Below are positions 39-19,922 of a DNA stretch of 20,147 bases, piece by piece. The position numbers and the translations under genes were made by a program. The first letter of the stretch is position 1. Every line of letters begins with the position of its first letter. The stretch spans positions 1 to 20,147 of the IMG/VR virus record IMGVR_UViG_3300034284_000705; one strand, given 5' to 3'. The notes under the pieces were generated by a model that was not told the origin of the DNA, did no database searches, and saw nothing but the letters and a program-made list of their open reading frames with translations. The DNA comes from a virus.

Positions 39-47
39 ATTATATCA
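39..47 (-). promoter_or_regulatory. Extended -10 promoter, TGATATAAT, after the tail-gene terminator
   Basis: On the minus strand this reads TGA-TATAAT, a perfect extended -10. It abuts the T-run of the terminator at 47-77 and lies six bases before the ATG at 32. No convincing -35 is present because that position falls inside the terminator hairpin. Confidence 0.6.
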
Positions 48-77
48 AAAAAAAGACCCACCAGTTTGACTAGTGGG
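47..77 (-). terminator. Rho-independent terminator downstream of the major tail protein
   Basis: The halves CCCAC (57-61) and GTGGG (73-77), extended inward by AGT/ACT across one mismatch and closed by a three-base loop, form a stem. On the minus strand the stem is followed by TC and eight T residues. It starts 25 bases after the stop codon of the major tail protein gene and should end that transcript. Confidence 0.85.
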
Positions 78-101
78 CCCTTCTTTTCTTTATTAAGTTT
101 T

Positions 102-746
102 TTATGAACCTTGGATTGTACGGTCAATAATTTTTCCGTAAGATCCTGTTGAGTCTTCTGGTAGAAGACGGAAAGTAACATCAAACATTGTTGCTGTGTC
201 ACGCTTTGCTGATACTGTAACATTTTCAATAGAAAGTGCACGGTATGCAACATAAACACGCTCAACGCTAGATGACTCGTCACAATCACCTGTTCCTGGA
301 CCTACTGCAATCAAAGCACGCTCTACTGGACATTCACCGATATCGCCAGAAGCGAGGTTGAGTGTGCGTCCTGCAGATGTTGTTTTGCTGCCTGAAAGAT
401 CATCGCCTTGTCCTGCGATTGAGAACAATAGATTTTCTAGAGTTGCTTCTGCAAAAGAAGTAGCAAGTGTTACTTGCATACCTTGTTTGTAAAGTTTTGC
501 AACGTCAAGAATTTGGTCTACTTGAACTTCGCCGAAATCAGGTTGGAATGTGATTTCAATACCATTACTTGTATATCCTACGTTTTCAATTCCGCCAGCG
601 ATATTAGCGCTATTAGATAGAGTCGTTTTGTAAGACTCAGTTGAAACGAAAGCAGGGACAGTTCCTGGTGTTAATGTACTATCTGCTGTAAACAGTGCAG
701 CAGCGCCAACGATAATATCGCTAGATGTACCTCTTGTATATGCCAT
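102..746 (-). CDS. Major tail protein (tail tube)
   Basis: This 214-residue protein probably forms the stacked rings of the tail tube. Features that fit are its size, an opening MAYTRGTSSDII followed by an Ala-rich strand (VGAAALFTA), a beta-rich body, a long loop around residues 110-160 and a C-terminal strand pair (SIENVTVSAKRDTATMFDVTF). Position supports it: it is the last gene of the connector module and follows a tail-terminator-like gene. No sheath gene lies beside it, which favours a siphovirus tail. A good Shine-Dalgarno (GAGGTGA) precedes the ATG and a strong terminator follows, as expected for an abundant structural protein. No catalytic motif was seen. The identification rests on gene order and overall character, so a related tail structural protein cannot be excluded. 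Confidence 0.7.
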   Translation of the reverse strand: MAYTRGTSSDIIVGAAALFTADSTLTPGTVPAFVSTESYKTTLSNSANIAGGIENVGYTSNGIEITFQPDFGEVQVDQILDVAKLYKQGMQVTLATSFAEATLENLLFSIAGQGDDLSGSKTTSAGRTLNLASGDIGECPVERALIAVGPGTGDCDESSSVERVYVAYRALSIENVTVSAKRDTATMFDVTFRLLPEDSTGSYGKIIDRTIQGS

Positions 747-768
747 TTATTCACCTCTTTTTGTGGTT

Positions 769-774
769 AGTATA
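769..774 (-). promoter_or_regulatory. Possible -10 (TATACT) for the major tail protein gene
   Basis: In the 69-base gap before the major tail protein gene the minus strand reads TGGATG, 17 bases, TATACT. It lacks the TG extension of the six better promoters here, and its -35 matches the consensus at only three of six positions. A second TATAAT-like sequence lies just upstream near 795-806. Confidence 0.25.
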
Positions 775-815
775 TGGACGATTTGTTTCCTCATCCATAA
801 TTATACAGCCTTTTA

Positions 816-1430
816 TTATGATTCTTCTTGTGGCCATTGTGGATGTAATGGCCTATCAAATTCAAGAAAGTCTATATTGTCTTTTAGATGATAGTCGTAT
901 TCTACTATGTACTTGTGAACACTTCCCCTTCTGTATCCGTCCAACTCAACCAAGTCTTGAGACTCGTCTGCTTGAAAGACCCTGATGCTTCTAAAAAATA
1001 CTTTCATGGGTAACTCTTTTGCAACAAGGCTTGCTTTGTTATCGGTCATCCATTTATTTAAATCTTGAGCAGAGTAGTCTTCTCGATCTAGGACCGCTAG
1101 CATTACATTTCCAATATTAGTACAACTTTCAATATCTCCGTATACTGTATACAAAACTTGCTCTCTTTTGCCTACTGGAAAAGCGCTAGATCTTAGGCGC
1201 ATCATTCGGTCATAAAATAAAACAGCAGGAAGTTTTTCATTTGCCGATGTCTGTAAATCCTGATAAATGTCTGAAATATTAACTGCTTGTGCTGCAGGCA
1301 AAAATGGAATATATGATGGTACATTTGGATTTATAGCCATGTTTATATCTTCATATTTACTAAATTGCTCATGCAAATACTCATTGATATATGATGCTGG
1401 AAAATCAAAGTTTGCTCTGGCGAGTACCAT
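816..1430 (-). CDS. Tail-terminator / tail-completion-like protein
   Basis: This 204-residue protein lies between the HK97-gp10-like gene and the major tail protein, which is where siphoviruses encode the tail terminator that caps the tube and joins it to the neck. The middle (about residues 65-125) reads like an alpha/beta domain: a charged strand with LPAVLFYDRMMRLR, then REQVLYTVYGDI, then a helix. The C-terminal part has alternating strands (MKVFFRSIRVF, HKYIVEYDYHL) that fit this fold class. It starts four bases after the preceding stop, with only a distant GAGG upstream, so translation is probably coupled. No signal peptide or membrane segment is seen. The role is inferred from position and strand pattern. 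Confidence 0.5.
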   Translation of the reverse strand: MVLARANFDFPASYINEYLHEQFSKYEDINMAINPNVPSYIPFLPAAQAVNISDIYQDLQTSANEKLPAVLFYDRMMRLRSSAFPVGKREQVLYTVYGDIESCTNIGNVMLAVLDREDYSAQDLNKWMTDNKASLVAKELPMKVFFRSIRVFQADESQDLVELDGYRRGSVHKYIVEYDYHLKDNIDFLEFDRPLHPQWPQEES

Positions 1431-1434
1431 ATTA

Positions 1435-2112
1435 CTATTCTACCTCAACTTTTGCATTAACCATCCATTTAAATCCCGTTGCTTTTCCTACTGACCTACC
1501 GCCTTTAATTCCTGCTGTAAAATTCTTTTTATATATCTTAGGATTATCTAGGTATTGATAAAGGCCTGTTGAGGTTAAAAATGATTGAGCAAAGTATGTG
1601 TTCATAAATCCATCAAATACTTTTTCGTAAGACCCTTTAACCTCTCTTCCTCCAGGGGAGTTATTAACTATTGTTTTTTTAGTAAATACTGTGACTCCGT
1701 CGTCCTCAAAAACAAGGACATTGCTATTCTTTGGCTTTATAACAACAGGAACTCCTTCTTCCATAATTTTTGCCTTATTATAAAATGGTTCATAAGATCC
1801 AGATTGAATAGATTGAGATTGTCTAAATTTAGAAGTAATAGATATTCCTAGACTTGTTACTCTATATTCAATGTCAAACAATCTTTGTCCCCTATTGCCT
1901 GTTTGGTACCATTCATATACGTGGTGCAATGCTTGTGGGTTACCTCTTGCCATAGCGTCTATGTATAATTTTAATCCCTCAATAGTTCCCCTTGCAAGAT
2001 TATCTAAAAATATTTTTTTGCCATCTTCGGCTCCTTCTAAAAATCCAAAGGAGTACTCAACCATATTGTCTAGTTGTTTTTGAAAAAGTTTAGTATTTAA
2101 CCTAACTAACAT
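1435..2112 (-). CDS. HK97-gp10-like neck / tail-completion protein
   Basis: The start at 2112 gives 225 residues beginning MLVRLNTKLFQKQL. It is chosen over an in-frame ATG at 2148 because its ATG overlaps the upstream stop by one base (TAATG), the same junction used by the genes at 2558 and 7976. The N-terminal helix (about residues 1-60) followed by a basic, Gly-rich C-terminus (GIKGGRSVGKATGFKWM) resembles HK97 gp10-type proteins that join neck and tail. The order connector, stopper, gp10-like, tail terminator, tail tube fits exactly. There is no enzymatic motif. Confidence is moderate on the role and high that it is a gene. Confidence 0.55.
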   Translation of the reverse strand: MLVRLNTKLFQKQLDNMVEYSFGFLEGAEDGKKIFLDNLARGTIEGLKLYIDAMARGNPQALHHVYEWYQTGNRGQRLFDIEYRVTSLGISITSKFRQSQSIQSGSYEPFYNKAKIMEEGVPVVIKPKNSNVLVFEDDGVTVFTKKTIVNNSPGGREVKGSYEKVFDGFMNTYFAQSFLTSTGLYQYLDNPKIYKKNFTAGIKGGRSVGKATGFKWMVNAKVEVE

Positions 2113-2558
2113 TAATCTACCGACGCTTGGCTTTCGGTACGTCTCCAAACCATCTGATATGACTCTACGTTTCCAAAAGGGCCGACAAAGGGCTGTATTG
2201 TTGCAATTTCATAGATTGTACCTTTTCCAGAACGAATACCAGATGTTTCTTTATATATCATATTTCCATGCATATCTCTTACGTTTGTAATCAATATGTC
2301 AGTAATTGCATATGGCTTATCAAGAGATGAAATTCTTAGATCTGTTGAGGATCTTGCAATTAGTTTGTTGTTAAGTTGAGAAATCATTTTTGGATCTAAT
2401 TCTTCAATATTTTTTCTAGTAGAAGGGGCAGCATTGCAGGCAATTGTTCTATCGACTAGCCATTCTTTTTTTATTTCTCCATAACCACCTTGGGTAGATA
2501 TTGCATAATAAATATCTGCACACATTGGATGTATAAAGTCATTTGGTTCGCATAACAT
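2112..2558 (-). CDS. Head-tail stopper-like protein
   Basis: This 148-residue protein begins MLCEPNDFIHPMCADIYY. Its ATG overlaps the upstream connector stop by one base (TAATG), so the two are probably translationally coupled. Strands such as PYAITDILITNV and GTIYEIATIQPF in the second half fit a small beta-barrel of the stopper or head-closure class, which sits below the connector ring and gates DNA exit. A loop rich in Ser, Arg and Asp (about residues 65-80) could insert into the channel. The assignment follows mainly from its place between the connector and the gp10-like protein, because no diagnostic motif is visible. Confidence 0.5.
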   Translation of the reverse strand: MLCEPNDFIHPMCADIYYAISTQGGYGEIKKEWLVDRTIACNAAPSTRKNIEELDPKMISQLNNKLIARSSTDLRISSLDKPYAITDILITNVRDMHGNMIYKETSGIRSGKGTIYEIATIQPFVGPFGNVESYQMVWRRTESQASVD

Positions 2559-3466
2559 TAAATCACTCCAGGTTTGACAATATTGGTTACATATTTGTCT
2601 AAAATTTTATCAACTATCATGTTTCCAGTACCTTCTAAAATTTTCTTATTAAATTGAATTTTATATTGATCTGTGTCGTATGAAGTAACATATCTTTTGT
2701 AGTAATCTAATTTTCCACATTTTAAATCTTCTATTAATAAAGTAGTGGCATATTTTACATCTTCGGGAACTGTTTTATATCCTGCGTCTAAAACAAAAAT
2801 ATAATCATATCCTCTTGGGAAGTCTACAATTCTTCCACTTCCAACAGACCCCAAATCTCCGTATGCTGGTGGTAACACAATTGAACCTTGTTCAACACGG
2901 TTATACTGTGAATCAAAATAACGTTGTATTCCTGAGTTGTCGGCTGTAATATTAAATGTGTATATGTTGTCATCTGGAGTTTCAAAATCATAAATTAAAA
3001 TATTATTTTCGTATACTTTTAAAATTTTGTTAAACCTTTTCCAAATACTAAAATAATCAGAGCCTTGACCGACTCCTTGAATTATTTCTTTTGAATTATA
3101 AAAACCACCCTGGACAACTGTATCTATAATTGATCTAGCAATCATCTCTAACTGTGTGTATTCTGATACTTCAGATGCGGTTGATCCAAGCAGGTTTGGG
3201 TCAATGTATGGTCTTTTTATTTCTATTGTGTCCTCTATAACAATGTTTTCATCTTCGTCTAATACTTGAAACAAAAAATTTCTATCCAATAATAAATCTG
3301 ACTGGGGAAATGCATATGTAACTTTAGAGCCTGTCGTAGATGTTACATTTGAACTCTGTAACACATGATCTGCCAAATCTTCAACGTAAATTGTATAGTC
3401 ACTATTTGCATCTGGAACATCCCAGGTAGTTACTTTAGGGTATGTAGGAACTCTTAATATATCCAT
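2558..3466 (-). CDS. Head-tail connector / adaptor protein
   Basis: This 302-residue protein appears to have two parts. Residues 1-85 look like an Ig-like or fibronectin-like beta domain (TWDVPDANSDYTIYV, NFLFQVLDEDENIVI). The rest contains helices resembling connector (HK97 gp6 / SPP1 gp15) proteins: a helix around residues 105-130 (QLEMIARSIIDTVV), a beta insertion, and a C-terminal helical stretch starting VPEDVKYATTLLIEDL followed by a Lys/Tyr-rich segment. Family members form a ring under the portal. The start codon lies one base after the preceding stop, without a clear Shine-Dalgarno, which suggests coupling. The N-terminal beta domain makes it longer than simple connectors of roughly 100-150 residues. 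Confidence 0.55.
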   Translation of the reverse strand: MDILRVPTYPKVTTWDVPDANSDYTIYVEDLADHVLQSSNVTSTTGSKVTYAFPQSDLLLDRNFLFQVLDEDENIVIEDTIEIKRPYIDPNLLGSTASEVSEYTQLEMIARSIIDTVVQGGFYNSKEIIQGVGQGSDYFSIWKRFNKILKVYENNILIYDFETPDDNIYTFNITADNSGIQRYFDSQYNRVEQGSIVLPPAYGDLGSVGSGRIVDFPRGYDYIFVLDAGYKTVPEDVKYATTLLIEDLKCGKLDYYKRYVTSYDTDQYKIQFNKKILEGTGNMIVDKILDKYVTNIVKPGVI

Positions 3467-3467
3467 G

Positions 3468-3758
3468 TTATAGACCGTACTCCTTTGCTACCTCTTCTGG
3501 ACTTGCAATTCTAATCCCTGGCCTTGTAAGCCATTTTTCAGCATTAATTCTTTCTACTATGTTGTAGCCTTTTAATATTTTTCCAAAACCTGAAGAGTAT
3601 ATGTTTTTGTTAGAATATATGGCTACGTTGTCTTTTACGGGCTTTTCTTTTTTTTCTTTGATTTCTGAGAATGACTCTGAAGATGCAACAACAGTACCAA
3701 ATACATTATCAGCAATTGGTCCAAGGGATTGTATATTTTTTTGTTTAACATCAGACAT
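3468..3758 (-). CDS. Small protein between capsid and connector genes, unknown function
   Basis: I do not recognise this 96-residue protein. It has a polar N-terminus, a Lys/Glu-rich stretch (EIKEKKEKPVKDN, about residues 32-44) and a compact C-terminal part ending WLTRPGIRIASPEEVAKEYGL, which looks like a short helical domain. It is the first gene after the capsid terminator, has its own extended -10 and a near-perfect Shine-Dalgarno (AAGGAGGA) close to the predicted transcript start, and lies one base before the connector gene. That setting suggests strong expression and a head-completion or decoration role, but this is inference. There are no cysteines, signal peptide or membrane segment. 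Confidence 0.55.
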   Translation of the reverse strand: MSDVKQKNIQSLGPIADNVFGTVVASSESFSEIKEKKEKPVKDNVAIYSNKNIYSSGFGKILKGYNIVERINAEKWLTRPGIRIASPEEVAKEYGL

Positions 3759-3775
3759 AGTATCCTCCTTCTTGT

Positions 3776-3784
3776 ATTATATCA
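3776..3784 (-). promoter_or_regulatory. Extended -10 promoter of the connector/tail operon, TGATATAAT
   Basis: The minus strand reads TGA-TATAAT directly after the capsid terminator. Transcription should start near 3769, inside the Shine-Dalgarno (AAGGAGGA, 3763-3770), so the leader would be only about 11 bases long. A second TATAAT overlaps at 3784-3789 but lacks the TG. Confidence 0.6.
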
Positions 3785-3790
3785 TTATAA

Positions 3791-3828
3791 ATAGAAAAGG
3801 GGGACAAGAGAATTAACTCTCATCCCCC
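3791..3828 (-). terminator. Rho-independent terminator downstream of the major capsid gene
   Basis: GGGGGA (3799-3804) pairs with TCCCCC (3823-3828), and AGAG (3807-3810) pairs with CTCT (3817-3820) across a 2x2 internal loop, with a six-base AATTAA loop. On the minus strand the stem is followed by TTTTCTATTT. It lies 17 bases after the capsid stop codon. Confidence 0.85.
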
Positions 3829-3844
3829 AAAAACTGTTTACAGA

Positions 3845-4990: not shown

Positions 4991-5010
4991 TATTACACCT
5001 CCTAAGTGAT

Positions 5011-5592: not shown

Positions 5593-6345
5593 AGGATTTT
5601 CCTCCTTGTCTATCTTAGAAATACTTGTGCCATTAGCACTTTCAACTAAGAACTTGATCATGCTTGTTTTCTCGTTGTCTGTTTTTTCAACGAAACCTAT
5701 GTTTTGCATTTGAATACCAGAGGTAGGGCTTAATTCTGATTCATTTTCTGAAACCATAACAATTCCAGATTCTTTATCCCAAAAAACATTTTCAATTGGT
5801 GTATCCATACCTTTTACAATATCTACACCATCTACTTTTTCTACAGAAACAATATTTGCAAATTGGTTTGCTGGACTATCAACTAGTGACAATTCTACTA
5901 AATCATAATCTTTAATAACTCTAATTTGTTTTTGTACTTGATCGTCATATGCTTCGTCCCATTTATTCATTTTTCCACCTATTGAAAATCCTGTGTATGT
6001 TCCATCTAAAACTTTTTCCCATGCATTTTGTGCACCCTTTGAAATATATGCAGAAACTAAAACTCCGTTGTACATTTTTTCTGATTTTGTATCATAATAT
6101 TTATCTTCTTTAAACGAAACCATTTTTCCAACAGCAGATGGCTGATGCATTTCACGAATGTTTCCACGAAATTTTTTAAATGCTTTTAAACTTGCTTCTG
6201 TTGTAACAATGTCATCTTGTTTGTCAACGTTATCTAATGTGGCAAAGCCTGAAACTGTGCGTCTTTCTTTATCTACCTTACTAAAAGGCATTGAAAGTCG
6301 AAGTTGCTCGCCCTCAGTGTTCCATTGGGCCTTAGTTATAATCAT
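5011..6345 (-). CDS. Prohead protease fused to scaffold domain
   Basis: Residues 1 to about 172 form an HK97-family (S78-like) prohead protease. The diagnostic parts are FSKVDKERRTVSGFATLDNVD, a probable catalytic His67 in REMHQ, a probable Ser121 in TGFSIGG, and the closing ELSLVDSPANQ motif. Residues 173-250 are a linker. From residue 252 onward lies an acidic, repetitive, coiled-coil scaffold region ending SLWGGRFLKTADLFR. The enzyme should process the scaffold and capsid arm during head maturation. The start at 6345 has no good Shine-Dalgarno; a TATACT lies 10 bases upstream (6356-6361), so a short leader or coupling with the portal gene is possible. At 444 residues it is about twice the size of a stand-alone protease because of the fusion. 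Confidence 0.85.
   Translation of the reverse strand: MIITKAQWNTEGEQLRLSMPFSKVDKERRTVSGFATLDNVDKQDDIVTTEASLKAFKKFRGNIREMHQPSAVGKMVSFKEDKYYDTKSEKMYNGVLVSAYISKGAQNAWEKVLDGTYTGFSIGGKMNKWDEAYDDQVQKQIRVIKDYDLVELSLVDSPANQFANIVSVEKVDGVDIVKGMDTPIENVFWDKESGIVMVSENESELSPTSGIQMQNIGFVEKTDNEKTSMIKFLVESANGTSISKIDKEENPMAKTTKKEATEIVEKSIATVEDVQVAPQEDAVVEVAEVTKSEDVVAETILTTEQAVVAEVTKAEEPTVSEVTKSEEVVSEVKTEEVSKSDVVIAEAVTEINNTLTSAFGDLVATVKSLQEQVNAITKSIGAVAQDVSATRDEFNEFGKRVDAVEADTAFRKSGDLGEIVQEQPEMVEKSLWGGRFLKTADLFR
5601..5607 (-). promoter_or_regulatory. Internal ribosome binding site (AAGGAGG) for nested scaffold
   Basis: The minus strand reads AAGGAGG inside the protease coding sequence, encoding part of KEEN, with eight bases to an in-frame ATG at 5592. 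The full-length gene itself has no comparable site at its start, which suggests that the scaffold portion is made in excess. Confidence 0.7.
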
Positions 6346-6380
6346 CTTACTGTATAGTATAAGGCACTTTTTTTACAATA

Positions 6381-6395
6381 TCTCAATTATTGAGA
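6381..6395 (-). other. Perfect small hairpin enclosing the portal stop codon
   Basis: TCTCAA (6381-6386) and TTGAGA (6390-6395) are exact complements, and the three-base loop is exactly the TAA stop codon of the portal gene. There is no T-run, so it is not a convincing terminator. It may be an mRNA stability or coupling element, or chance. Confidence 0.35.
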
Positions 6396-7976: not shown

Positions 7977-8386
7977 TAGTCGTCTGATCCCCATTTCTTT
8001 ACTGTTTGCTGCGCTGCGTGCACTGCTCCTAAATCGTTCATATTTGGTATTAGCCCTTGAGACATTCTGTCTTTTTGTTCTGAATATTCTTCTTCTGAAA
8101 TTCTATTTAAACCTGGAACAAAAATGCACTCACCGTCTCCTGGGTCTCCATAGTGTTTTGCGGCATTTTTTAATTCTGATATTTTTGATATGTCCCCTTT
8201 CATAGCGGGAATATTTAAAACAGATCCAGTTCCATCGGTAAACCATTTTCCATTTGATTTCTTATAAACATAAAGGCCCCAATCATAGTATTTATCAATT
8301 ACTTTTATACGAGACTCTCCAACTTGGCCCTTCATTTTAGGCAAGGCTTTACTCTTTTTAGGCTTATTATTTAAATTCATAACCAT
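7976..8386 (-). CDS. Small basic protein upstream of portal, unknown function
   Basis: I do not recognise this protein of 136 residues (134 from the second ATG). The N-terminus is Lys-rich (NNKPKKSKALPKMKGQ). A middle part with KYYDWGLYVYKKSNGKWF and a Gly/Asp loop (GDPGDGECIFVPG) looks like a small beta domain, and the C-terminus is polar and helical. The ATG at 8386 lies only one base after the -10 at 8388-8393, so it could not be translated from that promoter. The second ATG at 8380 is seven bases after the -10 and would be leaderless, making it the better start. No Shine-Dalgarno precedes either. It overlaps the portal by one base and heads the head-gene operon. It is unlikely to be the large terminase because of its size. 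Confidence 0.55.
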   Translation of the reverse strand: MVMNLNNKPKKSKALPKMKGQVGESRIKVIDKYYDWGLYVYKKSNGKWFTDGTGSVLNIPAMKGDISKISELKNAAKHYGDPGDGECIFVPGLNRISEEEYSEQKDRMSQGLIPNMNDLGAVHAAQQTVKKWGSDD

Positions 8387-8387
8387 C

Positions 8388-8396
8388 AGTATACCA
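8388..8396 (-). promoter_or_regulatory. Extended -10 promoter of the head operon, TGGTATACT
   Basis: The minus strand reads TGG-TATACT in the 12-base gap between the LamG-like gene and the small pre-portal gene. The ATG at 8380 lies seven bases downstream, consistent with a leaderless start. No -35 and no terminator hairpin are visible here. Confidence 0.5.
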
Positions 8397-8398
8397 TA

Positions 8399-11300: not shown

Positions 11301-11989
11301 ATACCTAAAGCATAAGAATTTAAGTCTACAACGCCATCTATCCCAGTTAATCCAATGTTGGATGGAAATGGAGAAACTGTCTGTCCTAAAGAAGTTGTAT
11401 TAAAATTTTCAGAACATTGTGCAACAGTTATTCCATTAGTAAAAATTTGATAACTATCTGTAGAAGCAGCCCCTCCCTCAAATTTTATTTTTAATATTGG
11501 TCTAAAGGATGTAACTTGATCTGGAAATATTGAGGTGTGAGAAATAAAAATCCATTTTCCAAAAATACCAGAAGAGTACTGAGTAACCTTTTCAATAGTT
11601 TCAGCAGAAGAAGTATCATTATATTCAAACCCAATTGATACTGATTTCAAGTATGGGCTATCTGTATAGATATAACATCCTGTAGTTAGAGTTTCTAAAT
11701 CAAAGTTTAGTTCATTTAAGTTTTCTAAATCATCCCCGACAAATTTAATTTCTTTTTCTGTGCCAACAAAATCGTCAAATTCAACTAAGTTCAGTATGCT
11801 GTTTGCAAAAGGCTTGTTTAAATCTTGGCTACTAGATATGACATTCGCACCAACAAAGTCCCAGTTTATTAAATTTCTTTGTGTATTGGAAATTAAAGAT
11901 AGATAATCGACGTCATCGTCTAATGACCAAAGACCTATGGGGTGCTCTGCAAAAATTTTTTCTGCATATAAATTAGATTTAATAGACAT
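8399..11989 (-). CDS. Large LamG-like structural protein (1196 aa)
   Basis: The longest protein in the window is probably a virion-associated tail or fibre protein. The opening AEHPIGLWSLDDD resembles the start of LamG / concanavalin-A-like repeats. A LamG-like domain spans about residues 280-425 (EYTIEMWIKISP, GEWYRPMLVQIKL, ASLLINGEQV). A second lies near the C-terminus (about 970-1110: TALQMWLRYDFDKF, LAFYINGNLV, EWSVIGVSFAS). The region between is rich in Asn, Tyr and Ser with beta character. There is no signal peptide, membrane helix or enzymatic motif. LamG domains often bind glycans, so receptor or cell-envelope binding is plausible. It starts 20 bases after the oxygenase stop with no Shine-Dalgarno; a TAAAAT -10-like element nine bases before the ATG would give a nearly leaderless message. 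Confidence 0.7.
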   Translation of the reverse strand: MSIKSNLYAEKIFAEHPIGLWSLDDDVDYLSLISNTQRNLINWDFVGANVISSSQDLNKPFANSILNLVEFDDFVGTEKEIKFVGDDLENLNELNFDLETLTTGCYIYTDSPYLKSVSIGFEYNDTSSAETIEKVTQYSSGIFGKWIFISHTSIFPDQVTSFRPILKIKFEGGAASTDSYQIFTNGITVAQCSENFNTTSLGQTVSPFPSNIGLTGIDGVVDLNSYALGIKNGYYLVNNNSLTAKNSSIPMVYGSDSITKIIPNENNPSLIIPGFGFLNETGRYKEYTIEMWIKISPDSNTALRIFGPIGSTDGLYVEDGFITLVIGKHFASHYVGEWYRPMLVQIKLSSNNASLLINGEQVIALNIDMSNIDLPLEFNESNKELDWLGFYSYENVYPYEIDCIAIYSYLVADLVAKKRWVYGQAVTSPESINSAYGATSAYIDYPFAEYAANYTYPDIGKWSQATTDNLSITAKTMSLAKYNLPTMFLDDYTNEKFLNDNSLVQNESVNYFTFRPNEDWNNKKTYAYFDNFSIIKEDIHGLVGVIKFEEASEDIQTIFEIYNIDNGNYFKATLEDDVIKYYFSYNNNVIVLNESASVLPNAYLPIGFKLAKMIEYFGSNLSTFFGSKNRLRVYLGANHSGLENFKGKFYKFHIFSNYNSSLVSSLFEINGLADVEAGNSFMAHTSTYTLIPELRYNKFYLDTASAGYWEDYIPLSYFGSYIDDLEGKNHYDLDLLQFNIDYPSPTVIYSTEQQAPWDYNDLELRYDHTVQQSYNQLDNALFSGWENYEDIEQQSIKSYFYNTDNSAVKSYISIQYITAGANKNLNEFSIVQALRNDKILDISNYSNWQNTVFEVADNTIIYPPTGVDFNLLAVVVHLVFNLKGTQNKNLGLKKLEIASQAFDHNSATKIGTRFGTPIYPYKKSGIYYDYKAKNPISIFKESVPYLYSTRKSGIEVRGSFHPYVNRGIGIPINSSLSNNYRVTALQMWLRYDFDKFPYGATQVFELEHKNDIIQFFVSASSQRGNRGKLFAVNKATGQQVNGLAFYINGNLVKDPILEAKEWSVIGVSFASSINMDNFLGHINLNGPFVFNNIASYQSTALQEIQSKVYRPWLRVKNSGSSDLYWTYWYTSYNWDGVLVLSSSELYGVNPASVYEAYIGRNKFVIDSNTSESLNFIADSVKIYSEMSWQTQTVTPV

Positions 11990-12009
11990 TGTTAGTCTAT
12001 TTTATCATA

Positions 12010-12609: not shown

Positions 12610-12618
12610 TTTATCTCC

Positions 12619-14649
12619 TTAGTAAAACTTAATTTCGCAGGCATCTGTACTACAATAAGCCTCGCCCTGTGCTTCTAAATTTTTTACGCCATCGTAAATA
12701 GCAGACCAATCAATCTTTCCAATTTTTCCAACATAAGAATTATATTCTTCTTTGGTTATTTGAGTATAAGGTTGCTGTGGATATGTTTTATTTCCCATGG
12801 GCAAGAATGATACTGCTTTTAATTGCCCCTCGTACATGTGTAAGGCGGGAGCAATAAACTTAGACTCTGTTTCTTTATCAAATGAAAGTGTTACAGATAC
12901 CCCATTGTCTGACCAATATTTTTGAGCAGTTGCTGCTAGACCAATTTTTTCAAAAAGACTTACATCTTTTTCAGATCTTGGGTGCCCAGATGCTACTGGG
13001 AAATATACTACTGAAGTGTTTGCTGATACTACATCATCTTCAATTTTATATCCTGCTGCTTTAAATAAATGCATCATTGGATCTGTATTGCCAAACCTTA
13101 TAGCACGAAGATAAAATTCTCCTCCTGGACCCCAATGAACTCCTGGAGTAGCACCAGAAAGCAATGAAACAGAGCCAGAAGGTTTGACGGTAGTTACACG
13201 AATTGACTCTCTAACGCATAGCCATTCCGAATAACTATGGTCATATGAGCGAATCTTTCGATACCCTTCATCCATCCATTGTCGTACCGTTGGCATACCT
13301 TTAGTGTCTGCAAAAGATGCAATTCCAGTTAAAGATGTTCCAATACGACGATTACGTTGCATAATTCCATTTGTGGTTTGCCAGTGTGTTGGCATGAGTG
13401 TTACAGTTTTGCCATATAGATATGCAAACTTCAATGTGCGTAAAAAATCTTCTTTGTCTTCATGTCTATTAAGATGAACTTCTACTAATGTGCAAAGTTC
13501 GTAAGACTCTAGTGGTTGTTCAGCGCAAGGATTAAATCCCATGATACGAGAATCTTTTCCATCTGCAGGATCTGCAAGGCGTCCATAGTTACGAGCAACA
13601 TCTAGCCAAATAAAACCTGGCTCTCCGTTATCTACAATTAGGTCAACATAGTCTTCATATTTTGTTCCAACTTCTGCTGAAATAGAATTATTAGACATCC
13701 AGGCCCATCCTGGATTTTCTGAATCAAAAGAATTTCTATCTGGAAAAACCTCTGCATTTTTTAAATTAATAAAATCTTTATCTTCTGGTAACCCTAAAGC
13801 CAATGTAGCAGAACGACGAACATTTCCAGAAACAACACATGTGCCAATAAGGTTTACAATATCTACTATTGCACGAGAATCAAGTGTTTCTCCTGCTCTA
13901 CCACCAATTACTTTATCTATCTTATTGTGTAATGCAATAAGTGGTCCTGGGCCGCTGGCAACCCCTCCAAAGCCTTTTATAGGGGCTCCTAGAGGACGGA
14001 TAAGGTCATAGTTAAACTTTTGTATAGCCTGATTAGGGCGCAGGTATGAATTTAAAAGCATTCTTACAGAATCTACCCAGCCTTCACGAGTATCTGGAAT
14101 ATCCCAGATATTTTCTGGTTCTGTTGGAGAGTAAATAGACATTTCTTTATCTTGTCCAAGAGTATCGAACCCTACTCCTATGCCTAACATTAATGCATCC
14201 ATAACCCAAGCGAACAATGCTCCTGGATCGTTTCTGTCAATATCACGGGTAGAGACCATTGCACAATTTTGAAGAGATGCAGAGTTACGGCTTTCCATAG
14301 TCATTGGAGTTCCAAAAGCCCAAAGACCACGACCAGGTGGTGTCCATTTTAATGTAAATAAACGGTCGTATGCTTCTTGAGCAGATTTTTGAGCCTTATA
14401 ATCATTCCACGGGAGTCTATTTTCTTTAGCATGATTTTTTTGTACTGAATACATTCCTTCAACTACACGTTTGCAAACTTCATGCCATCTTTCTTTAGTC
14501 CCATCTTCTTTCATCCTAGAATAAGTACGAATAAAAGTGATTTCTCCTAAAGAGTTAGTAGCAGCATCTTTAAATCCAAAAGGAGGTTCTGTTTGTTTAT
14601 AACTCTCTAGGAATTCTGGCGATAATTTAAAAGAAAAAAAGTCTAACAT
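12619..14649 (-). CDS. nrdJ: Class II (B12-dependent) ribonucleoside-triphosphate reductase
   Basis: This 676-residue enzyme matches the monomeric adenosylcobalamin-dependent RTPR of the Lactobacillus leichmannii type, which reduces NTPs to dNTPs through a thiyl radical. All key residues are visible: Cys129 in LQNCAMVS and Cys386 as the redox pair, Asn373, Cys375 (radical site) and Glu377 in FNPCAEQ, with the 11-residue Cys375-Cys386 spacing of the family, and the C-terminal shuttle pair Cys666/Cys671 (CSTDAC). VTTVKPSGSVSLLSG is the conserved phosphate-binding region. Length is slightly below the roughly 740 residues typical of the family. No intein interrupts it. A GGAGGA Shine-Dalgarno lies nine bases before the ATG, and it has its own extended -10 preceded by a dyad. 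No B12 riboswitch fits in the short leader. It should supply dNTPs during phage replication. Confidence 0.95.
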   Translation of the reverse strand: MLDFFSFKLSPEFLESYKQTEPPFGFKDAATNSLGEITFIRTYSRMKEDGTKERWHEVCKRVVEGMYSVQKNHAKENRLPWNDYKAQKSAQEAYDRLFTLKWTPPGRGLWAFGTPMTMESRNSASLQNCAMVSTRDIDRNDPGALFAWVMDALMLGIGVGFDTLGQDKEMSIYSPTEPENIWDIPDTREGWVDSVRMLLNSYLRPNQAIQKFNYDLIRPLGAPIKGFGGVASGPGPLIALHNKIDKVIGGRAGETLDSRAIVDIVNLIGTCVVSGNVRRSATLALGLPEDKDFINLKNAEVFPDRNSFDSENPGWAWMSNNSISAEVGTKYEDYVDLIVDNGEPGFIWLDVARNYGRLADPADGKDSRIMGFNPCAEQPLESYELCTLVEVHLNRHEDKEDFLRTLKFAYLYGKTVTLMPTHWQTTNGIMQRNRRIGTSLTGIASFADTKGMPTVRQWMDEGYRKIRSYDHSYSEWLCVRESIRVTTVKPSGSVSLLSGATPGVHWGPGGEFYLRAIRFGNTDPMMHLFKAAGYKIEDDVVSANTSVVYFPVASGHPRSEKDVSLFEKIGLAATAQKYWSDNGVSVTLSFDKETESKFIAPALHMYEGQLKAVSFLPMGNKTYPQQPYTQITKEEYNSYVGKIGKIDWSAIYDGVKNLEAQGEAYCSTDACEIKFY

Positions 14650-14691
14650 AGGCGTAAATCCTCCGAATTTATTTGAATAATTAGTAGTGTA

Positions 14692-14700
14692 AGTATAGCA
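14692..14700 (-). promoter_or_regulatory. Extended -10 promoter of the RNR gene, TGCTATACT
   Basis: The minus strand reads TGC-TATACT, 42 bases before the RNR start codon, giving a leader of about 35 bases that includes the GGAGGA site at 14659-14664. The TG of the motif is the last two bases of the inverted repeat at 14699-14725. Confidence 0.5.
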
Positions 14701-14725
14701 GAGTTTTTTAAATTATAAAACTCTG
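14699..14725 (-). repeat. Inverted repeat CAGAGTTTT-N9-AAAACTCTG at the RNR promoter
   Basis: Two exact nine-base arms flank a nine-base AT loop in the 124-base gap between the oxygenase cassette and the RNR gene. As RNA it could be a weak terminator or processing hairpin for the upstream cassette (no T-run). As DNA it could be an operator overlapping the -10. The rest of the gap (14726-14773) is AT-rich with a partial repeat (tagagttttaaagttt) and no gene. Confidence 0.55.
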
Positions 14726-14773
14726 TCTAAAGTTAAAGTATAGAGTTTTAAAGTTTAACAAACTGTCCAGATT

Positions 14774-15469
14774 TTATAATAACACAAAACTATTATCATT
14801 ATAGGTTTCTATAGGATCTATATTTTTATTAATAGGAAAAATATCGTATGCAATTGTAATCCTATCCTTTGAAAGATTCCAAGGAGCCATAGCATGTGCG
14901 TGGCCTGTTTCTGAAAGAATTGCAACATTGTTTTTATTATTAATAATTACATCTTTACCAAAAATTTTATAATATGTTTTAGAAGGCTCTGCTGAAACCG
15001 AATAATAGCCATGAAGAAATGGGAAGCCTTCTCCTCCATGATCGTGCCAAGGCATTTTTTCTATCATCTCTTCAGTTATCTCAATATCCTCATTTGTACT
15101 ATTTTTTACACTATATAAATTAAACCATCCATGAATAGAAAAGTCTTGATCTTCAAAATTTACACCATAATACTCGCAAGCCTCAATAGTCATAGATCTT
15201 ATAGATTTTAATAAATTAATTAATGCTGGATGTTTAAAATTAAATATATTGTAATACTCGGTTGTCATTGATGGAATTCCATCTTTTTTATCAATAAACA
15301 TTTCCTTTGGAAATTTAGTCATTGTATGATCTGTAACCTCATTAATCTTAAAAAATTGCTCGGCATATATTAAGTAATTAACTTTATGCAGAAATGAGTA
15401 TAAATCTTCTAAGTCATTATCTAATTCCCTAGAAAAAAATTTATGCTGTTTTTTCAAATGATTTTTCAT
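14774..15469 (-). CDS. 2OG-Fe(II) oxygenase-like protein, third tandem paralogue
   Basis: The start at 15469 (MKNHLKKQHKFFSREL, 231 residues) gives an ATGA overlap with the preceding stop. An in-frame ATG at 15484 is possible but breaks the pattern. The protein aligns along its length with its two upstream neighbours: KFFSRELDNDLEDL, YYNIFNFKHPAL, IRSMTIEACEYY, the HxH motif WHDHGG (His142/His144), HGYYSVSAEPSKTYYK, SETGHAHAM (His190/His192) and RITIAYD (Arg203). HxH followed by a distal His and an Arg strand resembles phage 2OG-FeII oxygenases of the Pfam Oxy_5 type, where these residues bind iron and 2-oxoglutarate. An insertion rich in Asn and Glu before the HxH distinguishes it. The substrate is unknown, and family assignment is by motif only. 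Confidence 0.6.
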   Translation of the reverse strand: MKNHLKKQHKFFSRELDNDLEDLYSFLHKVNYLIYAEQFFKINEVTDHTMTKFPKEMFIDKKDGIPSMTTEYYNIFNFKHPALINLLKSIRSMTIEACEYYGVNFEDQDFSIHGWFNLYSVKNSTNEDIEITEEMIEKMPWHDHGGEGFPFLHGYYSVSAEPSKTYYKIFGKDVIINNKNNVAILSETGHAHAMAPWNLSKDRITIAYDIFPINKNIDPIETYNDNSFVLL

Positions 15470-16125
15470 GATAATGGAATCCATTTTCCTGGTTTGCCAC
15501 CAGACATCATAGCAGATGGAACTATATCATAGGCAATTGTTATTCTTGGGTTTTTTTGAAACCAATCATCTCTTCCATGTGGGTGACCAGTTTCTGAAAT
15601 AATTGCTCTATTGTTTTTATTTACATTTTCAAAAATTTTATCTTCATTTCTGTCTATTTTATAAAAAGTAGAAGATGGCTCTGCATCTACACAGTAATAT
15701 CCATGAAATGCTGGTGCGCCAATTCCATTCATATGATCATGAAAATGATTTGGATACTTTAATGGATTAACTCCCCCATTTTTTCCTTCATTTGGAGTTT
15801 CCTGGTCTAAATTGAACCATCCGTGAATTAAATATTTTTCTTTATCCATATCTATTTCATAATATTCACAAACATCTTTCATTAATTTTCCAAGAGACTT
15901 GTAGAGTTGATAAATGCCTGGATGAATAAAAGTAAAAATATTATAATGATCAATGCCTAACTTTGTTAAAGATCCCATCCCTTTTCCATGCTTAAGCATT
16001 TCTTCTTTTGAAACATTTAGAATATTTTCATCTAAAATTAAAGATTCCATATCAACTAGATAAGACTTAAGACTATTTAAATCATTATCTAAAACAACAT
16101 TAAAAAATTTTTGTGGTTTACTCAT
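15466..16125 (-). CDS. 2OG-Fe(II) oxygenase-like protein, second tandem paralogue
   Basis: The start at 16125 (MSKPQKFFNVVLDNDL, 219 residues) overlaps the preceding stop as ATGA and aligns its first residues with the KFF motif of the paralogues. An ATG at 16152 would add nine residues inside the upstream gene. The presumed metal site is kept (HDH at 129-131, SETGHPHG with His181/183, RITIAYD with Arg194), as are the flanking HGYYCVDAEPSSTFYK and NKNNRAI segments. It differs from its neighbours by a Gly/Asn/Pro insertion before the HxH (about residues 108-128) and by a Gly-rich, basic C-terminus. It is co-transcribed with and probably translationally coupled to its neighbours. Three kept active sites suggest distinct substrates or a heteromer instead of decay. 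Confidence 0.6.
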   Translation of the reverse strand: MSKPQKFFNVVLDNDLNSLKSYLVDMESLILDENILNVSKEEMLKHGKGMGSLTKLGIDHYNIFTFIHPGIYQLYKSLGKLMKDVCEYYEIDMDKEKYLIHGWFNLDQETPNEGKNGGVNPLKYPNHFHDHMNGIGAPAFHGYYCVDAEPSSTFYKIDRNEDKIFENVNKNNRAIISETGHPHGRDDWFQKNPRITIAYDIVPSAMMSGGKPGKWIPLS

Positions 16126-16769
16126 GCCAGTGGAATCCAGTGCTGTTCCCAATTATGCATAATTCCTTTAAAAGGAATAACATCATAGGCAATTGTTATT
16201 CTTGGACCTTCCCAGTCCCAATCAGCCATGGCATGGGGATGGCCAGTTTCAGAAAGAATGGCTCTATTATTTTTATTTATATTTTCAAATTCTTTATCAA
16301 ATACTTTGTAGTGAGTTGTTGATGGTTCTGCTTTTACAGAATAATAACCGTGAAACCACGGAGCGCCAGAGCCACCATGTTCGTGCCAATCAAGTTTTCC
16401 GGTGTGATTGTAATTAACATTAAACCAACCTTGTACCCAAAAATCCTCTTTTTCAAAATCAAGATCATAATGTTTACAGGCTTCAATAGTCATAGACCTT
16501 ACAGATCTAAACAATTTATGAATTGCTGGATGATAAAATTGAAAAACATTATATTTATTCCATTTGCTTGTAGTTATACTTCCAGAAGAGTCCCAAAGCG
16601 TCTTTTCATCTTTATCATTTTTTAATATTTCGCCTTTTTTAATACGTTCAGATTGTATAATTAAAAAATTTGATAAATTATCTAGGTCAGAATCTAAAGT
16701 TCTTTCAAAAAATTTATGAGGAACGTTTTTATTTTGACTAGTGCTGTTTAAAGAAATATTTTCGTACAT
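16122..16769 (-). CDS. 2OG-Fe(II) oxygenase-like protein, first tandem paralogue
   Basis: This 215-residue protein is the first of a coupled three-gene cassette. Its GGAGA Shine-Dalgarno lies four bases before the ATG, behind its own extended -10 at 16791-16799. The motifs are KFFERTLDSDLDNL (helical N-terminus), FYHPAIHKLFRSVRSMTIEAC, GWFNVN, DWHEHGG (His129/His131), HGYYSVKAEPSTTHYK, SETGHPHAMADW (His177/His179) and RITIAYDV (Arg190). The pattern is a double-stranded beta-helix oxygenase with HxH-type proximal ligands, as in some phage and marine-bacterial 2OG-FeII families. It ends with TGA inside the next ATGA. The product could modify proteins, nucleotides or DNA, but the sequence does not say which. 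Confidence 0.6.
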   Translation of the reverse strand: MYENISLNSTSQNKNVPHKFFERTLDSDLDNLSNFLIIQSERIKKGEILKNDKDEKTLWDSSGSITTSKWNKYNVFQFYHPAIHKLFRSVRSMTIEACKHYDLDFEKEDFWVQGWFNVNYNHTGKLDWHEHGGSGAPWFHGYYSVKAEPSTTHYKVFDKEFENINKNNRAILSETGHPHAMADWDWEGPRITIAYDVIPFKGIMHNWEQHWIPLA

Positions 16770-16781
16770 TTAGTCTCCATT

Positions 16782-16805
16782 TCTTTATATAGTATATCAT
16801 AAAGA
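16782..16805. repeat. Inverted repeat TCTTTAT-N10-ATAAAGA around the oxygenase promoter
   Basis: Exact seven-base arms (16782-16788 and 16799-16805) flank the -10 element of the oxygenase cassette. The symmetry suits an operator or a weak hairpin at the end of the Hint-gene transcript. AT-rich sequence makes chance occurrence possible. Confidence 0.35.
16791..16799 (-). promoter_or_regulatory. Extended -10 promoter of the oxygenase cassette, TGATATACT
   Basis: The minus strand reads TGA-TATACT, 21 bases before the start codon at 16769, giving a leader of about 15 bases that includes the GGAGA site at 16774-16778. No -35 is evident. Confidence 0.55.
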
Positions 16806-16817
16806 TAAATGAGATTT

Positions 16818-18098
16818 TTACTTATTATGTACTAGATAATCTCCAGCAATAAACCAGTCTTGTGGCTCACAGTTAAACTGATAGACTACGGACTCTGAAA
16901 TATCAGTTGTTATAGATACAATTTCTATTTCTGAAAAAGATCCATCTTGTTCAACTTTTATTAAAATATCTCCTTCTTCTATTTCAGAAGCATTTTTAAC
17001 AACATAGGATGACCCCACTTTAGCAAAAAATGGCTGTGTCATTGAATATTTGCTATGGGATTCTCCATTAAAATATACAACTGAATACTTTGTTGATGGA
17101 ACAATATTTACAACAGTTGTTGAAACTATTCCATTTGAAGTTAATGCTGAACTAGAAAATTCTGAGTAGTCATAATCTCCAGCATCCCCTTCAGTTGACA
17201 ATTCTGACAAACCTACTGAGTATACAGCATCTCCAACCTGAATATCTTTTGCTGCAACCAAACCAGTTGGCGTTCTAATTAGTGTGTCTGCTTCAATACA
17301 AGCACGTCCTCCTGGTGAAAAACCAAACGGTGTAAATCCAAATGGTGTAAATCCAAATGCGCCAAATGGTGTAAATCCAAATGCGCCAAATGGTGTAAAT
17401 CCAAATGGTGTAAATCCAAATGCGCCAAATGGTGTAAATGAAAATGCATCAAACGGTACAAAACCAAATGCACCGAATGGTGCAAAACCAAATGGTGTAA
17501 ATGAGAATGATGTTACTGATCCTGAAGCAGCAGATGTGCCTGAATTACCGTTAGCGTTAGTTGCATAAACGGTGTATGTTTGTGCTGTTCCCGCTTCTTG
17601 CCCTACAGAAACAGATGTTCCCGCCTGTGTTGCTCCCTTGCCATCGCTAGAAGCCCAAGTGTAAGAAGTAATAGCACTTCCACCAGTTGCTGGTGCTGAC
17701 CAAGAAACGTCGTCGTTTGCCGCTCCACCTTGTGCAGTTGCGCTAGGTGCTGATGGAGTTGCAGGAACTGTTGTTGCAGTTACTGAGCCGCTTGCTGCAC
17801 TTGCTGCCGATGTTCCATAAGTATTAGTTGCAGTTACTGTAAATGTATAAGCAGTATCACTTGATAAACCTGTAACCCGAATTGGAGAACTCGAGCCAGA
17901 AGCGGTGTAACTTCCTGGGGTTGATAAAACTGTATAAGAGGTTGCAGCATTTCTTGGGTCTGCAGTGAAGGAAACATCTACAGCACCATCATTATATGGA
18001 CGAGCAGTTCCAACATTGGATGCAGAATCAATTGTTGGTGCATATGGCATTAAAAAGTCATTAGCACCTTGCGATTTACGACCACTTCTTTTACTCAT
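16818..18098 (-). CDS. FN3 - Phe/Gly repeat - Hint domain tail protein
   Basis: This 426-residue protein has three parts. Residues 20-196 hold two fibronectin-III-like domains (SYTVLSTPGSYTASG, LSSDTAYTFTVTATNTYG, and a second with TYTVYATNANGNSGTS), common in phage adhesins. Residues 197-262 are repeats of TPFGF and TPFGAFGF. Residues 267-426 form a Hint (hedgehog/intein) domain: Cys267 in the block-A motif CIEADTLIRTPTG, DIQVGDAVYS, EEGDILI, QFNCEPQDWFIAGDYLV, and a terminal His424-Asn425-Lys426. The usual block-B TxxH appears as SMTQ (Gln355). Hint domains cut or splice proteins. Here nothing but one Lys follows the domain, so splicing is impossible, and cleavage or ligation at Cys267 is the plausible activity. 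The gene has a GGGGAGAAG ribosome site and lies 44 bases after the fibre gene. Confidence 0.8.
   Translation of the reverse strand: MSKRSGRKSQGANDFLMPYAPTIDSASNVGTARPYNDGAVDVSFTADPRNAATSYTVLSTPGSYTASGSSSPIRVTGLSSDTAYTFTVTATNTYGTSAASAASGSVTATTVPATPSAPSATAQGGAANDDVSWSAPATGGSAITSYTWASSDGKGATQAGTSVSVGQEAGTAQTYTVYATNANGNSGTSAASGSVTSFSFTPFGFAPFGAFGFVPFDAFSFTPFGAFGFTPFGFTPFGAFGFTPFGAFGFTPFGFTPFGFSPGGRACIEADTLIRTPTGLVAAKDIQVGDAVYSVGLSELSTEGDAGDYDYSEFSSSALTSNGIVSTTVVNIVPSTKYSVVYFNGESHSKYSMTQPFFAKVGSSYVVKNASEIEEGDILIKVEQDGSFSEIEIVSITTDISESVVYQFNCEPQDWFIAGDYLVHNK
17313..17507 (-). repeat. In-frame tandem repeat encoding TPFGF / TPFGAFGF
   Basis: Near-identical 15- and 24-base units lie end to end; from 17435 to 17319 they run in the order 24, 15, 24, 24, 15, 15. 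Both lengths are multiples of three, so copy-number change keeps the frame. Less regular units extend up to 17507. The repeat links the FN3 part to the Hint domain. Confidence 0.85.
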
Positions 18099-18142
18099 AA
18101 ACTCTTCTCCCCTTATTTATTAATTTTTTTCCTGTCTAACAA

Positions 18143-19882
18143 TTACGCTGAAAGATCTCCAAAGACTACCCAAGAGTTTTCTGCTCTCTTAAATAATGTT
18201 GCAGATGACCAACGTGTACGAAGTTTAAGTCCAGGAGTAGCATTTACTGTTACTCCAGCATCGCCAGCAATTGTAACCTGTCCAGTGTTAGTCTGTAGAA
18301 TATCCAATGTGGTTCCTACTGGATAAGCAACTGCGCTATTTAGTGGGATGGTGATTGTTGTTCCTGATTCTGAACTTACTTCAATTAATGAGTCTCTTTC
18401 TGATTCTGCTGAAAGAGTATAAGAAGCAGTCTTTGAAATAATTGGTGTTCGTGAAGGAACGCCTTCTTTTGTTTGTGTTCCGTCTGGGAATACTACTCCA
18501 GATGAGGGGGTTACTGTTGTAGCCTCAAGTGCAGCAACTTTAATGTCATCAAGTGACCCTTCTGTAAAATCAATGGTAGTTGTTGGCTCTGTTGTTACGC
18601 CTTTAAACAGTTTCCACTTAGCATCAGATGCGTCTCTTACTAATCCTGAGTGTTTTGCTGTTCCATCATTGTATGCAACTACAAGGCCAAGGTCAATCGT
18701 ATTTGCTGGATTTTCGTGAGCAAGTTGAAGAATATTGTCTTCAACTGTAATACTCGTTGATGATACTGCAAAGGTATTTCCATTTACTGTTAAATTTCCA
18801 TCTACAGTAAGAGCGTCAACTGTTGTTGTTCCTGTAAATGTTGGTCCTGCAAGATTAGCCTTAAGATCAAGGGCTGTCTGTGTAGCACTTGATACTGGCT
18901 TATTTGCATCTGATGTATTGTCAACATCTGAAAGCCCTACCATAGTCTTTGTAACTGCTCCTTCTGCAATTTTTGCAGTAGTTACTGCTGCATTAGCAAG
19001 TTTTTCTGTTGTAACAGAAAGGCCACCAAGTTCATTAGTTCCAACTGAGTCATCACTTAAATGTGATTGTGAAATTGCATTGTCTGCAATCTTAGGTCCA
19101 GTTACTGCTGCATTTGCAATTTTTGCTGTTGTGACAGAATCAGAAACTGGAGTTCTTTCATCTGAAAGACGTGAATCGTTTGTGTAAACAAGGTTTAGTG
19201 TATTTGAAATACCATGTACGCTTGTATTTCCTGATTCATGGTCTGCTAATGAATTAGAAACTGCAACAAGATCTTCGTCATAGACTAGACTAAATACGTT
19301 TGAGATACCATGGACATTTGAGGTTGCTGATTCATGACCTGCTAATGAATTAGAAACTACATCAAGATCTTCATCATAGACTAAGGTAAAAGCGTTTATA
19401 ATACCATGGACATTTGAGGTTGCGTTAGCATGATTTTCAACTGAAGTTTTGACTGCATAATGATCTTGATCAAGTACTGACAAGGCATTATTTGTGCTTG
19501 CAATAGAGTTGCTAAGGCTAGAATTAGTATTACTTTGCTGTGTTAAAACATTTTGGATGTTTGCAAGATTTTGAGTAATCGAATTTGCAAATCCTGCGTC
19601 ATCTCCAATTGCTGCTGCAATCTCATTAAGAGTATTTAGTGTGTTTGGTGCTGCGTCGATAACCGCATCAATTGCATTATTTATAGCAGTAGTAACCTCT
19701 GATGAATCAAATACAATGGAGGCATCTACGAAATATTGTAGGCTTGCAAATGCAGTACTTCCATTACCTACTTTAAACTTGTTGGTATCTGTTTCAAAGC
19801 CAATTTCTCCTGCGCCCAGTACTGGATTTGCTGCAGCCCATTGTGCTGCTGTACCTCTGCGCTGTTGCATTCTAGTTGCCAT
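18143..19882 (-). CDS. Tail fibre protein with Mtd-like N-terminus
   Basis: This 579-residue fibre protein begins MATRMQQRRGTAAQW...GEIGFETDTNKFKVGNG (about residues 1-50), the N-terminal module seen in many phage tail proteins and related to the start of the Bordetella phage tropism determinant. Residues 60-145 are helical and probably coiled coil. Residues 151-246 hold three 32-residue units around NVHGI, ending in NDSRLSDERTP, a common fibre motif. Residues 250-311 carry short repeats of the VTTAKIANAAVT kind. Residues 340-480 contain a beta-rich shaft (TVDALTVDGNLTVNGNT, VVFPDGTQTKEGVP), and the C-terminus (480-579) looks like a compact beta domain. It has a strong AGGAGG ribosome site and its own extended -10. 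The likely role is host recognition, and the target is unknown. Confidence 0.8.
   Translation of the reverse strand: MATRMQQRRGTAAQWAAANPVLGAGEIGFETDTNKFKVGNGSTAFASLQYFVDASIVFDSSEVTTAINNAIDAVIDAAPNTLNTLNEIAAAIGDDAGFANSITQNLANIQNVLTQQSNTNSSLSNSIASTNNALSVLDQDHYAVKTSVENHANATSNVHGIINAFTLVYDEDLDVVSNSLAGHESATSNVHGISNVFSLVYDEDLVAVSNSLADHESGNTSVHGISNTLNLVYTNDSRLSDERTPVSDSVTTAKIANAAVTGPKIADNAISQSHLSDDSVGTNELGGLSVTTEKLANAAVTTAKIAEGAVTKTMVGLSDVDNTSDANKPVSSATQTALDLKANLAGPTFTGTTTVDALTVDGNLTVNGNTFAVSSTSITVEDNILQLAHENPANTIDLGLVVAYNDGTAKHSGLVRDASDAKWKLFKGVTTEPTTTIDFTEGSLDDIKVAALEATTVTPSSGVVFPDGTQTKEGVPSRTPIISKTASYTLSAESERDSLIEVSSESGTTITIPLNSAVAYPVGTTLDILQTNTGQVTIAGDAGVTVNATPGLKLRTRWSSATLFKRAENSWVVFGDLSA
19145..19435 (-). 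repeat. Three 96-base in-frame repeats in the tail fibre gene
   Basis: They encode three 32-residue units (residues 151-182, 183-214, 215-246), each with an (N/S)VHGI core and LVY(D/T) about ten residues later. The DNA is similar too: the string taccatggacatttgaggtt occurs identically in two units. Confidence 0.75.
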
Positions 19883-19913
19883 TTTTTATTTCCTCCTGGG
19901 GGTTATGGGTATA

Positions 19914-19922
19914 ATTATAACA
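19914..19922 (-). promoter_or_regulatory. Extended -10 promoter of the tail fibre gene, TGTTATAAT
   Basis: The minus strand reads TGT-TATAAT, 31 bases before the start codon at 19882, giving a leader of about 25 bases that includes AGGAGG (19892-19897). Its TG is the last two bases of the inverted repeat at 19921-19946. Confidence 0.6.

Follow-up and report, generated by a model that had tools for sequence, protein, structure and literature searches.

Recognition of extended -10 promoters by the SigA/HrdB holoenzyme is established. In Corynebacterium glutamicum, 33% of mRNAs are leaderless and the weakness of the -35 element has been attributed to extended -10 promoters of the form TGnTATAAT (PMC3890552). 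Mycobacterium tuberculosis has 26% leaderless transcripts, and its promoters mostly consist of TANNNT without a conserved -35, those with TGN being the strongest (PMC3898074). In a survey, leaderless genes accounted for ~19% on average across Actinobacteria (PMC3160421). For actinophages, leaderless SigA-like promoters have been predicted as single cases: PL1, PR2 and PL2 in mycobacteriophage Corndog (PMC4351075) and P90 in Adephagia (PMC11373665). Our search of the literature on leaderless expression and extended -10 promoters in phages, actinophages included, yielded no family-level description.

Results

A structural module of a probable actinophage

The 20,147 bases analysed here (hereafter, the window) carry a tailed phage's structural module, with all genes on the minus strand. 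Among these are genes for a tail fibre-like protein, an adenosylcobalamin-dependent ribonucleotide reductase (RNR; TIGR02505), the portal, a head maturation protease, the major capsid protein and a probable major tail protein. The gene at 16818-18098 (minus strand) encodes a protein with a fibronectin III domain and FTPFG-type repeats, whose C-terminal stretch (CIEADTLIRTPTGLVAAKDIQVGDAVYS ... YLVHNK) appears Hint/intein-like by eye, with no Pfam match there. Three tandem paralogues of 215-236 aa follow at 14774-15484, 15466-16152 and 16122-16769 (minus strand); they have no Pfam, PHROG or NCBIfam match, and their conserved histidine motifs (e.g. SETGHPH), judged by eye only, suggest a 2-oxoglutarate/Fe(II) oxygenase-like fold. 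When the RNR was used as a query against genome contigs, it returned a distant bacterial match and a contig of a Chitinophagaceae MAG, and nothing else; the latter encodes a stretch of 140 residues that shares 86% identity with the phage enzyme, and is probably a misbinned phage contig. No known RNA families were found within the window.

IMG/VR holds at least 593 closely related contigs. Since WhiB, an actinobacterial regulator, is encoded by 6 of 12 long relatives and the capsid protein has its nearest described relatives in Streptomyces phages (e.g. Comrade of the Stanwilliamsviridae, 38% identity), the phage host is most likely an actinobacterium, and probably a low-GC freshwater one.

Six extended -10 sequences in intergenic DNA

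A preliminary description of this DNA had listed six copies of TGNTATAMT, and their coordinates proved exact: all are on the minus strand, there is no seventh copy, and the plus strand has none. As also claimed there, every copy (6/6) falls into intergenic DNA and none into a gene, and the distances from the -10 to the start codon (6, 17, 7, 42, 21 and 31 nt, in order of coordinate) span the 6-42 bases given. That the copies head the transcription units holds for these six placements but was put slightly too strongly, as further promoter-like sites are present at 11999-12007 and 6356-6361. The features are as follows.

39..47, minus strand: extended -10 TGATATAAT, 6 nt before the ATG at 32; promoter predicted to give a leaderless mRNA for the gene that follows the major tail protein
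47..79, minus strand: intrinsic terminator, 10-bp stem GGCCCACTAG/CTGGTGGGTC plus T tract
3776..3784, minus strand: extended -10 TGATATAAT, 17 nt before the ATG at 3758; predicted to be Shine-Dalgarno-led (AGGAGG), after the major capsid gene
3799..3828, minus strand: intrinsic terminator (12-bp stem, 7 GC pairs) situated between the major capsid gene and the promoter at 3776-3784, close to the latter
6356..6361, minus strand: TATACT without TG, 10 nt before the ATG at 6345, where the head maturation protease gene starts; probably a promoter of the non-extended, near-leaderless kind
8388..8396, minus strand: extended -10 TGGTATACT, between a stop codon (8399) and the ATG at 8380, 7 nt from the latter; promoter predicted to give a leaderless mRNA for the gene preceding the portal
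11999..12007, minus strand: relaxed extended -10 TGATAAAAT, 9 nt before the ATG at 11989, no Shine-Dalgarno sequence; predicted near-leaderless promoter of a 1196-aa gene
14692..14700, minus strand: extended -10 TGCTATACT, 42 nt before the ATG at 14649 of the RNR; predicted to be Shine-Dalgarno-led
14699..14725, minus strand: inverted repeat CAGAGTTTT-N9-AAAACTCTG that runs up to and includes the G of the extended -10; operator candidate for the RNR promoter
16791..16799, minus strand: extended -10 TGATATACT, 21 nt before the ATG at 16769; predicted to be Shine-Dalgarno-led (GGAG)
19914..19922, minus strand: extended -10 TGTTATAAT, 31 nt before the ATG at 19882 of the tail fibre-like gene; predicted to be Shine-Dalgarno-led (AGGAGG)

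Intergenic DNA makes up merely 594 bases, or 3% of the window. Dinucleotide shuffles of the whole window contained 3.0 copies on average over both strands, with six or more in 8 of 100 shuffles, and shuffles of the intergenic DNA alone contained 0.085 (maximum 2 in 2000). What stands out is not the bare number of motifs but their placement: all six copies are intergenic and on the coding strand, against the shuffled expectation of 0.085.

Enrichment across the phage family

For a family-wide view, we assembled seven long relatives of 69-109 kb each (about 655 kb summed), in which genes were called automatically with a codon-usage caller blind to the motif. The seven contigs are mutually related, so their counts are not independent, and sites were made unique by sequence. 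Of 219 motif matches, 172 were intergenic and 142 were located no more than 150 nt ahead of a start on the same strand, the motif strand following the gene strand. Five contigs together had 107 such upstream sites, as compared to at most 10 (median 2) for 300 random letter permutations of the motif; the upstream enrichment that the preliminary description had proposed to look for against shuffled sequence is thus found in the relatives as well as in the window. It had also held that many intragenic copies would speak against a promoter role. Matches within genes numbered 24 in sense orientation (28.8 expected from codon shuffling) and 14 in antisense (44.8 expected) and, being at or below expectation, do not refute it.

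The sites carry TGN directly before a TATAAT-like hexamer, on the sense strand and upstream of genes, as is characteristic of extended -10 promoters. Judging from sequence and position, the TGNTATAMT copies are predicted transcription start signals across this virus family. The role in expressing structural genes that was first envisaged is too narrow, given that the motif is spread over the relatives' whole genomes.

Upstream of the motif, positions are almost devoid of information in the relatives. A TTGACA with at least five of six matches at a spacer of 16-18 accompanied 18/136 sites, compared with 1-6 at shifted positions. A paired -35/-10 scan returned 71 hits with 75.6 expected, and this lack of an excess is what one would expect if the promoters mostly do without a -35. 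A shared -35 element was rejected, being found at ~13% of sites only, in keeping with the original impression that none is visible. The accompanying suggestion, that extended -10 promoters here mostly dispense with the -35, is strongly backed by genome-wide enrichment, strand, position and conservation.

Two classes of promoter-to-start spacing

In the relatives, the distance between the -10 and the start codon is bimodal, with a sharp peak at 6 nt (31/136), no sites between 10 and 14 nt, and a second, broad class that begins at 15 nt. The peak does not hinge on gene calls: when these were ignored, 47 of the 216 distinct sites had an ATG at offset 6, which mostly opened a long ORF, and ATGs at offsets 10-11 opened 4-10 codons only. 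A Shine-Dalgarno sequence preceded none of the 47 close-class genes versus 37 of 43 genes at 15-45 nt, the distance in the far class being in line with the need for Shine-Dalgarno-led leaders to be long enough to hold that sequence. A TAnnnT ending 6 nt upstream occurred at 66 genes without a Shine-Dalgarno sequence versus 7 with one. All leaderless-type promoters in the set examined are followed by an ATG start (78/78), and TGN is present in 44 of the 78. Hence, the hallmarks of leaderless genes coincide here—a -10 ending 6-9 nt before the start, ATG as start codon, and no Shine-Dalgarno sequence—and about one third of motifs are close enough for the message to begin at the first codon.

We consider the spacing of 6-7 nt, absent from the preliminary description, the most telling feature; it predicts leaderless mRNAs. 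Within the window, the sites at 39 and 8388 would be of the leaderless type and 11999 near-leaderless, and Shine-Dalgarno-led transcripts are predicted for 3776, 14692, 16791 and 19914. Among controls, a 6-nt spacing peak was found neither in Staphylococcus phage phi11 (34.5% GC) nor in Arthrobacter phage Ingrid. Ingrid is an actinophage (51% GC) that lacks both the motif and the peak, so the architecture is not universal in actinophages. Comrade, likewise included as a control, showed a weak peak (10 genes at 6-7 nt versus 0-2 per control distance).

Conservation of individual sites

The motif at 39 is kept in 29 of 30 distinct homologous upstream regions, with a spacing of exactly 6 nt in 28. 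The final T of the T tract of the terminator at 47-79 is also the first base of this extended -10, and relatives retain hairpin, T tract and 6-nt spacing while the stem sequence differs. The terminators at 47-79 and 3799-3828 both form tandems in which an intrinsic terminator lies directly upstream of an extended -10; such terminators accompany 15/136 promoters in the relatives and none in shuffles. The motif at 3776 is kept in 8 of 10 homologous upstreams. Upstream of the head maturation protease gene, TATAMT at a distance of 10 nt is conserved in close relatives.

At 8388-8396, the longest ORF begins at 8386, 1 nt from the motif. An ATG corresponding to 8380, with the motif 7 nt away, is the conserved start in 29/29 distinct homologous upstreams, and this conservation together with the spacing points to 8380, not 8386, as the true start of the gene before the portal. 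TGRTAAAAT precedes homologues of the 1196-aa gene in 24/24 upstreams, 9 nt from the start in all those listed. Homologues of the 16791 site were present in the nearest relatives (21 nt in G002, 27 nt in G014), and the strict motif at 19914 occurred in 5 of 6 homologous upstreams, the sixth having a GTTATAAT variant.

The RNR promoter motif at 14692 is kept in 18/18 homologous upstreams. In the adjoining inverted repeat, the arms are conserved and the N9 spacing is mostly constant among relatives while the loop sequence varies, and the repeat is accordingly a candidate operator that would bind a dimeric regulator. The AGAGTTTT/AAAACTCT pair is found in 4 of the 7 long relatives, a single time in each, and is absent elsewhere in all 7.

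Comrade, which infects Streptomyces griseus, shares the gene order of RNR, portal, protease, capsid, connector and major tail protein, and matches three promoter positions of the window, two of them with a terminator directly upstream. The capsid gene is followed by a terminator and TGCTATAAT (equivalent of 3776) and the major tail gene by a terminator and TGGTAAACT (equivalent of 39), and gp24, the gene before the portal, has TATAAT 7 nt before its ATG (equivalent of 8388). Comrade's promoter downstream of the major tail gene is Shine-Dalgarno-led, in contrast to the leaderless type predicted here, and strict TGNTATAMT is scarce in that phage (6 copies in 129 kb).

Discussion

How might these promoters work? 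Very probably, they are extended -10 promoters of the host's principal sigma factor that give rise to leaderless or Shine-Dalgarno-led mRNAs, where we infer the start points, the host polymerase and leaderless translation from the arrangement of the sites. The RNA polymerase of an actinobacterial host, together with a principal sigma factor of the SigA/HrdB type, would read the six motifs; TGN and a near-perfect TATAMT would offer enough contact with sigma regions 2 and 3 for a -35 to be usually unneeded. Transcription would start ~6-9 nt past the -10. Where the ATG lies at the start point, as proposed for 39 and 8388 and nearly so for 11999, a leaderless mRNA would be translated from its 5′-terminal AUG; where it lies at least 15 nt downstream, the transcript would carry a leader with a Shine-Dalgarno sequence.

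That the motif might merely reflect the A+T richness of intergenic DNA draws on the bare count in the window, which 8 of 100 shuffles reach, yet motifs with the same letters in permuted order reach no more than 10 upstream sites versus 107, and the shuffled intergenic DNA (0.085 copies), orthologous conservation and the 6-nt spacing peak speak against it as well. An A+T artefact, rejected on the permuted motifs and intergenic shuffles, has essentially no chance of being correct. The sites may also be real promoters that need a phage sigma factor, an activator or a polymerase modification such as a late-gene factor. Cultured phages of 'Ca. Nanopelagicales' do encode a sigma-70 factor (PMC10202952), WhiB is found in half of the relatives, and many phage genes have no assigned function; of 8 contigs searched with a profile for Sigma70_r4 (PF04545), one (G010) had one match, below threshold. 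However, the sequence is that of a canonical housekeeping extended -10, which the host holoenzyme could read unaided, and the motif precedes genes genome-wide, not one block. Moreover, the Sigma70_r2 profile (PF04542) had no match in 12 relatives and the RpoB domain profile (PF00562) none in 8 contigs, though the contigs are possibly incomplete; a search for T7-type RNA polymerase (PF00940) was negative, but so was its positive control. The altered polymerase considered in the preliminary description is thus unsupported, and dependence on a phage-encoded factor appears unlikely.

A further question is whether genes at 6-7 nt are leaderless at all: transcription could start further upstream, with translation independent of a Shine-Dalgarno sequence in some other way and the motif serving as a protein-binding site. 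Some close-class genes lie downstream of same-strand genes, making read-through conceivable, but part of them have terminators directly upstream (39 in the window; 15/136 promoters in the relatives, with 0 in shuffles). The spacing also equals the -10-to-+1 distance of known actinobacterial promoters, and the motif co-occurs with a Shine-Dalgarno sequence almost exclusively at 15 nt or more, rendering a non-leaderless close class very unlikely. Going beyond host-read promoters with leaderless or Shine-Dalgarno-led mRNAs, one may speculate that promoter-to-start spacing splits the genes into leaderless and Shine-Dalgarno-led translation classes under shared, -10-centred promoters, and that protein output could track the host's capacity for leaderless translation in infection or starvation; we regard this as a tentative and rather doubtful proposal.

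Our data provide a solid in silico promoter map and reveal no new mechanism. For a widespread group of uncultivated actinophages, they offer testable positions of promoters and transcription starts, and indicate host-type leaderless expression family-wide, genes of the structural module included. Start codons can be fixed, with 8380 preferred to 8386 as an example, and TG-TATAMT, owing to its high information value in these genomes, can be used as an annotation signal.

How does this compare to known systems? C. glutamicum SigA promoters resemble those described here in the TGnTATAAT sequence, the weak -35, the few nucleotides between -10 and +1 and the leaderless share of about a third (PMC3890552), yet leaderless starts in that species also include GTG, whereas in this low-GC phage group ATG is used in 78/78. 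Similarly, SigA promoters of M. tuberculosis are centred on the -10, have no -35 and yield a leaderless share (26%), with TGN in 7% of TANNNT promoters (PMC3898074) as opposed to 44/78 leaderless-type promoters here. The architecture is therefore ordinary for actinobacteria and no new kind of system, and there are earlier predictions of individual leaderless promoters in actinophages. In Corndog and Adephagia, too, phage genes are predicted to be expressed leaderless from host SigA promoters; those promoters are few, and Corndog's emerged from paired -35/-10 scoring, whereas tens of -10-centred sites are found here throughout a phage family.
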